From the NCBI GenBank assembly GCA_001180065.1, contig CVSM01000121.1, positions 1 through 42,935 of the forward strand: a stretch of DNA of 42,935 nt, written 5' to 3'. The DNA comes from Candidatus Pelagibacter communis. GTDB lineage: Bacteria; Pseudomonadota; Alphaproteobacteria; Pelagibacterales; Pelagibacteraceae. The notes under the pieces were generated by a model, which saw nothing but the letters and a program-made list of their open reading frames with translations, was not told the DNA's origin and ran no database searches. Numbering within the stretch: position 1 is the stretch's first letter; every line of letters begins with the position of its first letter. This document shows positions 40,020 through 42,935 of the stretch, piece after piece. Made by a program: the position numbers and the translations under genes.

Positions 40020-40104
40020 GGGCGAATGGCGGAACTGGTAGACGCGCACGACTCAAAATCGTGTTTCGCAAGAAGTGAGAGTTCGATTCTCTCTTCGCCC
40101 ACCA
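40020..40104 (+). tRNA. tRNA-Leu (anticodon CAA)
   Basis: The acceptor stem GGGCGAA (40020-40026) pairs with TTCGCCC (40094-40100), followed by discriminator A and an encoded CCA. The D-arm has GGCGGAACTGGTAGACGC, the anticodon stem CACGA/TCGTG encloses the loop CTCAAAA with anticodon CAA, a long variable arm typical of tRNA-Leu follows, and the T-arm contains GTTCGATTC. The following protein gene starts only four bases after the CCA. Confidence 0.96.
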
Positions 40105-40108
40105 AATT

Positions 40109-41818
40109 ATGGAATTGAATAAAATAAACAGTTTAGTAGAACTTTTTTTTACAAAGTATAAAGAAATTAATTCAATTTCTGAAAAACCATTTTTAAAATG
40201 GTTAAAAGAAAATGAAAAAGATTTTTTAACTTGGCAACAAGTTGCATCAAAAATTCAAATTTTATCTGAACATTTAAGAATAAAGTTGAATAAAGGAGAC
40301 AGGTGTATCTTATTATCTGAAAATCGACCTGAATGGCTTATCTCTGATATATCAATAATGAATGCAGGTGGTGTTACGGTACCATTGTTTACAACTTATT
40401 CAGAGAAAGACTATGAGTACATTATTAATGATTGTAAGCCAAAAATTTGTATCGTCTCTAATGAAATCCAATTAAAAAAAATTGAAAAATTTATCTCTGA
40501 TGAGATTAAAGTTTTATCCATTGAAAACTTAAACGAAAGAGTTGAGAATATAGAAAATATCTTTAATGAACATTCAAAAAAAAATAAATCAAATCCTCAT
40601 ATAAGTTTTAATCAAAATCTTGAAAGAAAAGATCTTGCTTGCATCATTTATACATCTGGCACAACTGGCAATCCTAAAGGTGTAATGCTTAGTCATGGAG
40701 GAATTTTATCAAATTGTGAAGGAGCTCAAGAAATATTAAATCAATTAGTTCAAAATAGTGAACCTACTTTTTTGACATGGTTACCGTTATCTCATTCATA
40801 TGAGCATGCAGTTCAATTTGTTCAAATTTCGCTTGGTGCAAAAATTTATTATGCTGAAAGTCTAGAGAAGTTGTTATCAAATATGTCTATTGCAAAACCC
40901 ACAATTATGACAGCTGTCCCAAGATTTTATCAAAATTTATACAGCAAAATTTCAATTAATTTTTCAAAACAGAAAGGTTTTAAAAAAAAATTGATTTCAT
41001 CCACGATTTCACTCGGAATTAAAAAACTTAATAATGAGAATTTAACATTTAGAGAAAAATTGATTAATTTCTTTTGTGAAAAACTAGTAAGAAAAAAGAT
41101 TAAAAATCAGTTCGGTGGAAAACTAAAGGCCTTTGTATCTGGGGGTGGCGCCTTAGACCAAAAAATTGGAGAATTTTTAAACGCTATAGGATTGCCTACT
41201 CTTCAAGGTTACGGTCTTACCGAGGCCTCACCTGTTGTGAGCTGTAATATTCCTGGAAAAATCAGAATCGACACAGTTGGGCCTCCTTTTAAAACAAACC
41301 AGGTAAATATAGCTGAAGATGGTGAAATTTTAGTAAAAGGTGAAAATGTAATGCTTGGTTATTGGAATATGAAAAAAGAGACATCTGATGTCATAATGGA
41401 TGGCTGGTTACATACTGGTGACATTGGAGAGATCACTGAAGATGGAAATTTAAAAATTACTGATAGAAAAAAAGAAATAATAGTTAGTCTTGGTGGCGAT
41501 AATATTTCACCGTCAAAAATAGAAAATTTATTAGTTTTAAATGAAAAAATTACACAAAGTTTTGTTTATGGAGATAAGAAAACTTATTTGGTAGCGCTAA
41601 TTGTTACTGAAAGTACCGAAAATAGAAAAGAAATTGAAATTTTTTTAGAAAATTTAAATAAAACTTTATCTTTAGTAGAAAAAGTCAAAAAATTTAAATT
41701 AATTAAAGAAGAATTTTCAATTGAAAATGGAATGTTAACACCAACACTAAAATTAAAAAGAAAAAAAATTTTAGAAAAATACAAAGAGGATTTAGAAAAA
41801 CTTTATCAATCTAAGTAA
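40109..41818 (+). CDS. AMP-dependent long-chain acyl-CoA synthetase
   Basis: The 569-residue ANL-superfamily enzyme has the P-loop-like 'IIYTSGTTGNPKGVMLSHGG', 'WLPLSHSYEH', 'LQGYGLTEASPVVS', 'GWLHTGDIGEITEDG' and 'ITDRKKEIIV', as in FadD/FAA-type fatty acyl-CoA synthetases. It activates fatty acids with ATP and CoA. No membrane anchor or signal peptide is visible. The ATG lies four bases after the tRNA-Leu CCA, so any ribosome-binding site would fall within the tRNA and the mRNA may be leaderless after processing. A terminator-like palindrome follows. Confidence 0.88.
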   Translation: MELNKINSLVELFFTKYKEINSISEKPFLKWLKENEKDFLTWQQVASKIQILSEHLRIKLNKGDRCILLSENRPEWLISDISIMNAGGVTVPLFTTYSEKDYEYIINDCKPKICIVSNEIQLKKIEKFISDEIKVLSIENLNERVENIENIFNEHSKKNKSNPHISFNQNLERKDLACIIYTSGTTGNPKGVMLSHGGILSNCEGAQEILNQLVQNSEPTFLTWLPLSHSYEHAVQFVQISLGAKIYYAESLEKLLSNMSIAKPTIMTAVPRFYQNLYSKISINFSKQKGFKKKLISSTISLGIKKLNNENLTFREKLINFFCEKLVRKKIKNQFGGKLKAFVSGGGALDQKIGEFLNAIGLPTLQGYGLTEASPVVSCNIPGKIRIDTVGPPFKTNQVNIAEDGEILVKGENVMLGYWNMKKETSDVIMDGWLHTGDIGEITEDGNLKITDRKKEIIVSLGGDNISPSKIENLLVLNEKITQSFVYGDKKTYLVALIVTESTENRKEIEIFLENLNKTLSLVEKVKKFKLIKEEFSIENGMLTPTLKLKRKKILEKYKEDLEKLYQSK

Positions 41819-41875
41819 AAATTTGATTATAAAGCGCATAAATATTAACTTTTTAAACATTTAAAAAAAAAAAAT

Positions 41876-41898
41876 AATTTGTTAACAAATTTTTTTTT
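41876..41898 (+). terminator. Terminator-like palindrome after the acyl-CoA synthetase gene
   Basis: AATTTG (41876-41881) pairs with CAAATT (41886-41891) around TTAA, a perfect 16-base palindrome, followed by T to 41898. An A-run lies upstream, so it may work in both directions. The stem is AU-rich and weak. Confidence 0.5.
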
Positions 41899-41924
41899 AT
41901 AAAATTTTTCTTTTAATTAAAGAA

Positions 41925-41953
41925 TTGACATAACGTGTATAAAAAAATAAAAA
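41925..41953 (+). promoter_or_regulatory. Candidate promoter of the basic microprotein gene
   Basis: A perfect -35 TTGACA at 41925-41930 is followed 17 bases later by a weak -10 TAAAAA at 41948-41953. The same TTGACA precedes katG. It fits the position of the stand-alone gene at 42005. Confidence 0.4.
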
Positions 41954-41963
41954 TAACATAACA

Positions 41964-41982
41964 ACGAATCAAATTGATTCGT
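41964..41982 (+). promoter_or_regulatory. Perfect 9-bp inverted repeat in the microprotein leader
   Basis: ACGAATCAA and TTGATTCGT are exact reverse complements around one A. The arms contain a GAATC and a GATTC, both GANTC sites of the kind methylated by CcrM in alphaproteobacteria. As RNA it would form an eight-pair hairpin with a three-base loop just before the ribosome-binding site. It could be an operator or an RNA control element. Confidence 0.55.
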
Positions 41983-42004
41983 TTAACTTAAAAGGGAGCT
42001 AAAG

Positions 42005-42081
42005 ATGCCTAAGAGAAGAAAAAAAGCAAAGAAGGCTAAGAAAAAAGCTAAGAAAAAAGCTAAAAAAGAAGAAGAAGATAA
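42005..42081 (+). CDS. Lysine/arginine-rich microprotein, end reached by a one-base shift in an A6 run
   Basis: A strong Shine-Dalgarno (AGGGAG at 41993-41998) is six bases before the ATG. The first 21 codons encode only Met, Pro, Lys, Arg and Ala in 'KKAKKKAKKKA' repeats. In the literal frame the coding then turns acidic ('EEEDN') and runs through the terminator and antisense to carD up to 42349, which is implausible. A -1 shift at AAAAAA (42062-42067) instead gives four Arg and a TAA at 42079-42081, just before the terminator, for a 25-residue polybasic peptide. The cause could be transcriptional slippage or a base missing from this sequence. I do not recognise the family; nucleic-acid or ribosome binding is only a guess from charge. 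Confidence 0.55.
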
Positions 42082-42100
42082 TTACTTAGTATTCTTTATT

Positions 42101-42143
42101 AAAAACGCTTCTCATAACGTAAAGTGTGAGAGGCGTTTTTTTT
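42101..42143. terminator. Bidirectional terminator between the microprotein gene and carD
   Basis: AAAAACGCTTCTCA (42101-42114) pairs with TGAGAGGCGTTTTT (42127-42140) with one G-U pair, around a 12-base loop. Eight T follow to 42143 on the plus strand, and a TTTTT tail follows on the minus strand. It is the strongest terminator in the window and serves both convergent genes, overlapping the last base pair of the carD stop. Confidence 0.88.
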
Positions 42144-42935
42144 ATTCCTCTAAAGACACTTCATTATCTGTCTCTGTGTCAGTAATCGTCTCTTCTACCG
42201 GGGGCAAGTTAGACGTAGACGGTTTTGGTGATGGTGTAATTTTAGTTTGGTCTACTAAATTTCTTTTTAAAGCTTTATCTAATTTTTTCTGGGTATCCTC
42301 TAAAGATATATTAAGTATAATTTTGAATTCTGATAATATTCTTTCATAAGCTTTTTCAAAAAGTTGTCTTTCACTATAAGATTGGTCAACCATCAGATCA
42401 TCACCTTTATTTAAGTCTCTCACTACCTCAGCTAGTTCATAAATTTTACCTGATGATATCTTTGCTTCATATTCTTGTGCTCTTCTACTCCACATAGATC
42501 TTTTTATTTTTGGTTTACTTTTAAGAATTGAGATACATTTGTTTACTTGGTTAATAGTCGCTAAGTGACGAAGATGGGACTGTTTATTTACAGGTACCAT
42601 CCCATTTGCTTTGTCTTTTTCAAATTTTATAACGTATGTTTCAACATCAATTCCACCAATATTAATTTTTTTAAATTCAGTGATTTGGCCAACACCGTGC
42701 TTGGGGTATACTACGTAATCTTTAATTTTATATTCTCTCTTTTCCGTATCTTGTTTTTTTACTTTTTTAATTTCTGGCTTTATTTCATTACTTTTTGAAA
42801 TTCTTAAGTTATCTGTTTTTGTATTTAATTTATTTTCGGTTTTATTTAATTGTTTTTTTTTATTAACTTTTTTAACTATAGGTTTAACTATTTTTTTTGT
42901 TTTTTTTGATAAATTTTTTTTTGATTTTGTATGAG
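42142..42935 (-). CDS. CarD/CdnL-family transcription factor with lysine-rich N-terminal extension (N-terminus outside window)
   Basis: The frame is open on the minus strand from the window edge to a TAA at 42142. The CarD RNA polymerase-interaction domain is 'YKIKDYVVYPKHGVGQITEF' followed by 'ETYVIKFEKDKANGMVPV'. The DNA-binding helical domain follows with 'SKPKIKRSMWSRRAQEYEAKI', 'IYELAEVVRDLNKGDD' and 'SYSERQLFEKAYERIL'. CarD/CdnL stabilises open promoter complexes, including rRNA promoters. At least 70 residues before the domain are rich in Lys and Asn, an extension beyond the usual 160-170-residue form, and an acidic tail 'TDTETDNEVSLEE' closes the protein. The start is not visible here. 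Confidence 0.88.
   Translation of the reverse strand, partial: HTKSKKNLSKKTKKIVKPIVKKVNKKKQLNKTENKLNTKTDNLRISKSNEIKPEIKKVKKQDTEKREYKIKDYVVYPKHGVGQITEFKKINIGGIDVETYVIKFEKDKANGMVPVNKQSHLRHLATINQVNKCISILKSKPKIKRSMWSRRAQEYEAKISSGKIYELAEVVRDLNKGDDLMVDQSYSERQLFEKAYERILSEFKIILNISLEDTQKKLDKALKRNLVDQTKITPSPKPSTSNLPPVEETITDTETDNEVSLEE

Follow-up and report, generated by a model that had tools for sequence, protein, structure and literature searches.

A conserved polybasic microprotein gene beside carD in Pelagibacter and its probable antisense partner, the rhtB RNA

The locus described here raises the question of why a very short reading frame, apparently broken, should be surrounded by a complete set of expression signals. 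It lies near the end of a 42,935-nt stretch of DNA from Candidatus Pelagibacter communis (contig CVSM01000121.1), which is called the window in the following. The original prediction, derived from the letters of this stretch, proposed a self-contained gene for a polybasic microprotein with a one-base shift in an A6 run, and ascribed the shift either to transcriptional slippage or to an error or mutation in the assembly. A perfect TTGACA, a perfect inverted repeat, a Shine-Dalgarno sequence with ATG, 21 codons of Met, Pro, Lys, Arg and Ala and a terminator were all located as claimed. The features of the region are the following:

40109..41818, + strand: AMP-binding acyl-CoA synthetase, upstream neighbour, outside the unit
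41925..41930, + strand: -35 element TTGACA, perfect match, part of the microprotein gene
41949..41954, + strand: presumed -10 element AAAAAT, 18-nt spacer, weak match to the consensus
41963..41983, + strand: 5'-leader hairpin or palindrome AACGAATCAAATTGATTCGTT with two GANTC sites, perfect 10-bp arms at 41963-41972 and 41974-41983
41994..42007, + strand: GGGAGCTAAAGATG, from the Shine-Dalgarno sequence to the start codon, where the rhtB sRNA loop is proposed to bind, antisense of the 13-nt RF01814 loop
42005..42081, + strand: polybasic microprotein gene, MPKRRKKAKKAKKKAKKKAKK, in near relatives followed by RRRR and a stop
42062..42067, + strand: A6 run, site of the apparent shift, one base short of near relatives
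42101..42140, either strand: terminator hairpin that separates the microprotein gene from the convergent carD, T run on the + side
42142..42933, - strand: carD (CarD_TRCF_RID and CarD_C domains), convergent neighbour, truncated by the window end

The ATG at 42005 is followed by 21 residues drawn only from Met, Pro, Lys, Arg and Ala. The conserved stop corresponds to TAA at 42079-42081, which is out of frame in the window. Read literally, the frame continues after the polybasic part with EEEDN, runs through the terminator and antisense to carD, and ends at 42349 after 114 aa, which confirms the earlier description. Upstream of the gene, at a distance of 30-150 nt, TTGACA (161 loci) or TTGAC (3 loci) is present in all 164 loci with enough upstream DNA among 176 de-duplicated ones, and the A-rich block around the presumed -10 element is conserved across the genus. 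Transcription would start near 41961, and the microprotein mRNA is expected to have about 180 nt. Promoter-like hits in the region were not above those in shuffled sequences (15 vs 14.8). The segment 41950-42150 folds with a z value of -4.9, and none of 200 shuffles was as low.

GAATC was found within the 5' hairpin region of all 178 distinct leaders collected. In the genera g8, g12 and g15 the leader stem has a different sequence and, as judged by eye, retains its complementarity. The GANTC sequences of the leader hairpin are CcrM sites, and its right arm varies between genera. A function of the palindrome as a regulon operator was considered and rejected: CGAATC-N(3-6)-GATTCG was confined to one place, the microprotein leader, in seven of eight genomes, and was absent in the eighth (G004), where a contig edge cuts the microprotein gene. 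Within the genus, the terminator seems to vary less in its 5' arm (ACGCTTCTCAT) than in its 3' arm, which changes via G·U pairs; the less variable arm may serve an additional function. Within the window, only a tRNA at 40020-40101 scored above an Rfam gathering cut-off. With permissive settings, 41800-42200 yielded 11 hits below threshold; a hit to rli38 (36.1 bits vs 49) was ascribed to terminator resemblance, and a hit to rhtB (20.5 bits, minus strand) over the leader is the antisense signal itself. From this layout, positions 41925-42140 are best explained as what would be a complete transcription unit with a single gene, encoding a nearly pure Lys/Arg/Ala peptide of 25 residues.

To judge whether the gene is conserved, loci collected by DNA similarity have to be kept apart from those collected by pattern. 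Of 36 genus-mates searched by similarity, 29 gave long matches to the region; the other seven genomes are 67-82% complete. The start was included in 27 of these 29 loci, all of them with AGGGAGCTAAAGATG; L029 and L030 were left out since contig ends cut them before the start. At least 120 further contigs were added by scanning for exact copies of the start motif; among the matches listed, 80 titles were all Pelagibacterales, and the exact scan of viral contigs gave none. As these scan loci were picked by a pattern over the start and the first codons, only the 27 similarity loci are suited to testing conservation of the start, and some genomes occur in both sets. With duplicates removed and later loci added, 176 distinct loci were obtained, whose intact peptides have 19-58 aa with KKA-type repeats. 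Over the 175 distinct loci other than the window, 2468 Lys, 956 Arg and 821 Ala residues were counted. In the four largest classes of identical peptides, the variable sites (5, 6, 4 and 3) are all third codon positions, so that the peptide itself is under selection. Judged by these comparisons, the microprotein gene is real and conserved. It is apparently unannotated. Three assemblies break in or beside this low-complexity gene (start of G004:C11, start of G001:C29, end of G005:C14), which is a further reason for its being missed.

The comparison also settles the frame. Among 147 relatives with the start motif, all encode the peptide in a single frame (21-41 aa). The stop is visible in 146, locus L070 ending before it, and is followed by terminator-like sequence in 144, the other three being cut by locus ends (L100 and L146 end before the terminator). 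The alignment and count of A residues that had been proposed as a check gave A7 in the near relatives L002, L004, L006 and L007 compared to A6 in the window, and an interrupted run of equal length in L003. As predicted for the shifted frame, the relatives end in KKRRRR or similar before the stop. In the de-duplicated set of 176 loci the frame is broken twice, in the window (A6) and in L229 (A8; G066 of genus g9, another draft genome), both times at the same run; two further loci were flagged merely for valine residues or N's. On the evidence of the relatives, the shift in the window is a homopolymer error of the assembly or a private mutation from A7 to A6. A programmed frameshift or transcriptional slippage yielding two products, as might be suggested by a literal frame that misses the conserved RRRR-stop by one base, is scarcely credible, since all 147 homologues keep one frame without any shift and the two exceptions lie in draft assemblies with A6 and A8 at the same run. 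Of the original prediction, the self-contained, signal-rich and very likely regulated polybasic gene and the error or mutation therefore stand, and the slippage or programmed shift falls.

What could regulate the gene became apparent from a second copy of its initiation region. Exact sites of GGGAGCTAAAGATG occur twice per genome in all eight SAR11 genomes searched, with two extra one-mismatch sites in all. No gene begins at the second site; its reverse complement is the loop of the rhtB sRNA, Rfam family RF01814. In this RNA, a 9-bp stem leads into a 4-bp inner stem (AGCC/GGUU), which closes a loop of 13 nt, AUCUUUAGCUCCC. The loop is the exact antisense of GGGAGCUAAAGAU and covers the Shine-Dalgarno sequence, the spacer and the AU of the start codon. 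Over the second copy, RF01814 scored 79.6-88 bits in the five loci scanned. The window's own genome has its rhtB RNA at G000:C74:6736-6818 on the minus strand, with 74.4 bits compared to a gathering cut-off of 55, so that the hairpin belongs to the family by Rfam's own measure. As this is a different contig from that of the window, the partner was out of reach of the original prediction.

In a larger set of 101 g1 genomes, GGGAGCTAAAGATGNCTA was found twice in 79 and once in 20, and was missing from two (G266, G324). RF01814 scored above the gathering cut-off in 71 of 147 genomes of the order, all of them g1, and in none of 14 controls. Of the 76 g1 genomes listed, three had no RF01814 hit and two had only sub-threshold hits, located at the leader itself. 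With strict filters, no RF01814 was found above the cut-off in other genera except for the hairpins of g14 (L180) and g17 (L179), the latter with a compensatory change of the inner stem to AGTC/GATT. The pattern GGGAGN{3,9}ATGGC, which does not fit the leaders of g15 or of the second family f2, recovered the leader in 14 of 31 genomes (g5 to g12, g16), in none of which a further site with the leader's spacer turned up; under this pattern a near copy (GGGAGGAACGCAAATGGC) was seen in G069. Near a DUF2805/TIGR03643 gene such a hairpin was present in g17 alone among the other genera, and inside g1 in G324; the G266 hairpin beside such a gene was missed because its loop reads CUCUC. Inspection of the weak RF01814 hits of f2 and g7 recognised no hairpin with a matching loop. 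In G098 (g9) and G073 (g16), which are 65-69% complete, the start region is canonical and no sRNA was seen; the 14-mer may thus be older than the sRNA.

The strand of the RNA was judged mainly on 75 distinct hairpin loci, which were gathered with a loop-containing pattern and are unfit to test conservation of the loop. On the Rfam side, the commonest position for the start of a -10-like box is 12-14 nt upstream of the hairpin; 68 of the 75 loci have a TAATGCA or TAATGAA whose end lies 29-32 nt upstream of the hairpin. These steady upstream boxes fit a transcription start at the first base of the hairpin. At least five T within 14 nt after the stem were found in 26 of the 75 loci on the Rfam strand and in none on the other. 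The inner stem AGCC/GGUU contains a G·U pair in 22 of 28 distinct hairpins, and the outer stem showed three G·U and no A·C over seven distinct arm pairs (68 loci). Another count of the outer stem gave eight G·U and no A·C with a search pattern that partly favoured G·U, so that the former count is the cleaner one. In principle, the second copy could act on the opposite strand, as an RNA with an mRNA-like Shine-Dalgarno sequence and AUG serving as decoy or mini-gene (MAK...), and a Shine-Dalgarno sequence and ATG do stand there, with short reading frames that stay open for 2 to 28 codons. These frames have neither constant length nor constant sequence, however, and the G·U pairs, the T runs and the -10-like box all fit the Rfam strand, which makes this reading highly improbable.

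If the loop of the rhtB RNA pairs with the microprotein leader, changes in one partner should be matched in the other. GGGAGCTAAAAATGG was found in 18 of 399 g1 genomes, two of which (G541, G680) represent unrelated genes. The remaining 16 carry the variant GGGAGCTAAAAATG at one or both partners: both partners were found in 13 and were variant in all 13, two yielded only the mRNA and one only the sRNA. For these three (G603, G408, G554), a degenerate scan of 60 genomes gave no second site. Together with canonical genomes, both partners were read in 26: 13 canonical/canonical, 13 variant/variant and none mixed. A matched change of this kind is seen in G324, with the leader AAAAATG and the loop CATTTTT. 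Among the 60 genomes, 21 canonical pairs are exact-string counts, with G461 alone read at both loci; a third site of G461 was unrelated and was dropped. One-sided changes also occur. Pairing is kept by G·U for the leader of G336 (GCTGAAG) and for the loop of G266 (L311, G266:C6), where CUCUC faces a GGGAG leader. The leader of G280 (TGGAG) results in an end mismatch, and G212 and G238 have an altered inner stem.

The variant leaders do not form one clade: a single clade of the 13 variant leaders that fitted into a tree (11 of these from genomes with both partners) was rejected with p-AU 2.9e-53 on a 50-row tree. The fewest state switches were five for CarD (177 rows), four for CarD plus acyl-CoA synthetase (156 rows) and five for the 50-row subset, the starred branches of the 50-row tree forcing only two. 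Since these are quick trees of neighbours of the microprotein's own locus, the number of switch events is uncertain. Between two (starred branches) and three independent genome pairs differ in state, all of them concordant, a number with which a sign test cannot reach 0.05. The leader and the hairpin lie at separate loci, the loop is complementary to the initiation region and the two change together, in few independent events and with one-sided changes in G266, G280 and G336. Base pairing of the rhtB loop with the microprotein start region is strongly supported.

The predicted energies are in accordance with such a contact. A 19-nt stretch of the loop and a MAK-type leader give -34.8 kcal/mol, compared to a mean of -9.9 and a lowest value of -23.4 for 2000 shuffles, and in MAK-type genomes pairing extends over at least 17 nt including bases of the inner stem. 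In MPK-type leaders, the window's among them, pairing breaks just after the start codon, with duplexes of -26.5 kcal/mol for the window leader and canonical RNA and -28.8 for its own RNA. The hairpin of the window's genome (G000:C74) has UUAGGCC beside the loop and is predicted to pair better with its own mRNA than the canonical one. For variant mRNA and canonical sRNA, which form an A·C mismatch, -27.3 is predicted vs -31.0 kcal/mol. As the target spans the Shine-Dalgarno sequence to the start codon, a block of initiation is the simplest consequence. We propose that the rhtB RNA, a hairpin of about 50 nt (expected RNA length 47-60 nt, with a predicted start near GAUAGUCC) encoded elsewhere in the same genome, would act as a trans-acting antisense sRNA: both RNAs would be made and meet, and the loop would occupy the ribosome-binding site of the microprotein mRNA and block initiation until the sRNA level falls.

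A small peptide whose ribosome-binding site is covered by an antisense RNA through long, near-perfect pairing also resembles a type I toxin-antitoxin pair, with the peptide as silenced toxin. Over-expressed basic DNA-binding proteins can indeed be lethal, as described for HctA in E. coli (PMC4355289). Yet the peptide gene is not always accompanied by the RNA: it is kept in genera without an sRNA over the cut-off, near-complete genomes included, and it has a fixed place by carD. Moreover, most type I toxins are hydrophobic, which this peptide is not. A toxin-antitoxin pair therefore appears quite unlikely.

The second concern is the exporter gene from which the motif takes its name. A LysE-type rhtB lies directly downstream in 54 of the 75 loci, the hairpin ends 0-19 nt before the exporter start, and most of seven loci viewed have AGGA within the 3' arm, close to the start codon, so that this arm may hold the exporter's Shine-Dalgarno sequence. 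In L173, L175 and L179 the rhtB start lies within 20 nt of the hairpin, with an SD-like AGGA in the 3' arm. The hairpin could hence be a cis element of rhtB, with the microprotein mRNA regulating the exporter and not the reverse. Against this, hairpin and loop persist where rhtB is not downstream, namely in 15 of the 69 loci that have enough DNA, among them that of the window's genome (L312, L239), which shows that the hairpin is not tied to rhtB. In 26 of 75 loci the stem is also immediately followed by a T run, which suggests that transcription ends ahead of the exporter gene. We regard the reversed direction as improbable; control of the microprotein by the rhtB RNA is the preferred direction, and hairpin and exporter may interact also in cis.

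What the peptide does has to be judged from its composition and its place. The gene is convergent to carD in g5 to g8, g10 to g12, g15 and g16 as well as in G098 (g9); in G066 (g9) the carD-convergent gene is present and frame-broken. Beside carD of G074 (g17) no such gene was found, and in G070 (g13), G071 (g14) and G124 (g7) carD itself was not found. The second family, f2, has at the same place a 40-91-aa protein in the four loci read, which begins with MEELKVIFAKA... or MEDLKIIFAAA... and continues with KAAPKKK-type repeats:

L170, 1065-1322, - strand: f2 carD-convergent gene
L171, 1050-1280, + strand: f2 carD-convergent gene
L172, 889-1164, - strand: f2 carD-convergent gene
L181, 929-1051, - strand: f2 carD-convergent gene

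These f2 versions share the N-terminus and vary strongly in repeat number. The three g1 peptides submitted to Pfam and NCBIfam gave no match, neither to an H1, Hc1 or Hc2-type model nor to a ribosomal protein family, although very short low-complexity queries may escape such models. The four f2 proteins had no match in NCBIfam and one chance hit in Pfam (E 0.62), again none of the H1 type, and an f2 protein compared to solved structures (PDB) gave no match at E 0.1.

Small, highly charged proteins such as bTHX and eL41 are known from ribosomes, and by size and charge, together with its strong Shine-Dalgarno sequence and terminator, the peptide might be a ribosomal or ribosome-assembly protein rather than a DNA condenser. 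With three peptides lacking a Pfam or NCBIfam match, intact lengths of 19-58 aa with KKA-type repeats, and 40-91-aa KAAPKKK-repeat versions at the same place in f2 (four loci read) that look like an H1 tail, we consider this rather unlikely. The chain is Lys/Ala/Arg-rich and of low complexity, as in H1-like proteins, and the best explanation on this evidence is that it represents a histone-H1-like basic protein in a short SAR11 form, whose gene lies convergent to carD in the sampled genera. Once its translation is released, the peptide would coat DNA or RNA as a protamine- or H1-like condenser.

In summary, we consider it probable (roughly 75%) that the rhtB RNA is a trans antisense sRNA which controls translation of an H1-like micro-peptide in Pelagibacter, the frameshift of the window being an error or private deletion. 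The new element is the antisense link of the rhtB RNA to the microprotein leader, strongly supported as base pairing by comparative data; the frameshift is ordinary. A step further, a dedicated two-gene RNA circuit of a 25-residue micro-histone and a private one-hairpin antisense sRNA that controls SAR11 chromosome condensation, independent of IhtA-hctA, is conceivable and put forward only tentatively. If this circuit exists, sRNA control of H1-like condensers would be a recurring solution in streamlined genomes.

These results give a specific, testable target to an RNA motif of 2009 whose function was open, in a bacterial group that ranks among the most abundant of the ocean, and two matched natural versions of the leader/loop pair are available. 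They also add a widely conserved SAR11 gene that is ill-suited to ordinary annotation and proteomics, being mostly shorter than 30 codons and of low complexity; trypsin would cut such a Lys/Arg-rich peptide to fragments.

According to literature, the rhtB motif is a bulged hairpin with a conserved loop near rhtB; the section on it by Meyer et al. 2009 (PMC2704228) suggests regulation or termination, leaves the function open and names no trans target. The antisense partner of the microprotein leader is this very motif, RF01814. In the literature searched, from which subscription papers were mostly absent, we found neither a published target of the RF01814/rhtB RNA nor, for Pelagibacter and SAR11, the microprotein in print, and the main text of the SAR11 start-site map (PMC5069720) does not contain 'rhtB'.

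Several known systems share single traits with the proposed pair. AbcR, EcpR1 and other alphaproteobacterial sRNAs use C-rich anti-SD loops on many mRNA targets; the C-rich rhtB loop likewise pairs with a ribosome-binding site, whereas it fits one site per genome in the eight genomes searched. Trans-encoded type I antitoxins such as OhsC (ShoB) and IstR (TisB) likewise pair over a long, nearly perfect stretch close to where translation of a very small gene starts. In contrast to their targets, the SAR11 peptide is polybasic, and genera in which no such RNA was found have kept it. With bacterial H1-like proteins and protamines the peptide shares the Lys/Arg/Ala low complexity and, in the f2 versions, KAAPKKK repeats; it differs by its 21-41 residues (147 relatives) and by the lack of any Pfam or NCBIfam match beyond one chance hit. 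HctA, the H1-like protein of Chlamydia, is larger than the SAR11 micro-peptide. The logic is closest to IhtA of Chlamydia trachomatis, a trans sRNA that represses translation of the H1-like hctA by covering its start codon with a hairpin loop; according to PMC4355289, IhtA has three stem-loops and a 7-nt contact and does not interact with the SD. Here too an sRNA hairpin loop would lie over the start codon of an mRNA for an H1-like basic protein, presumably with repression as the result. Unlike IhtA, the rhtB RNA is one hairpin with a 13-nt loop covering the SD to AU(G), and no sequence relation is claimed. If the peptide does condense DNA, SAR11 and Chlamydia would have convergently placed an H1-like protein under sRNA control at the start codon.
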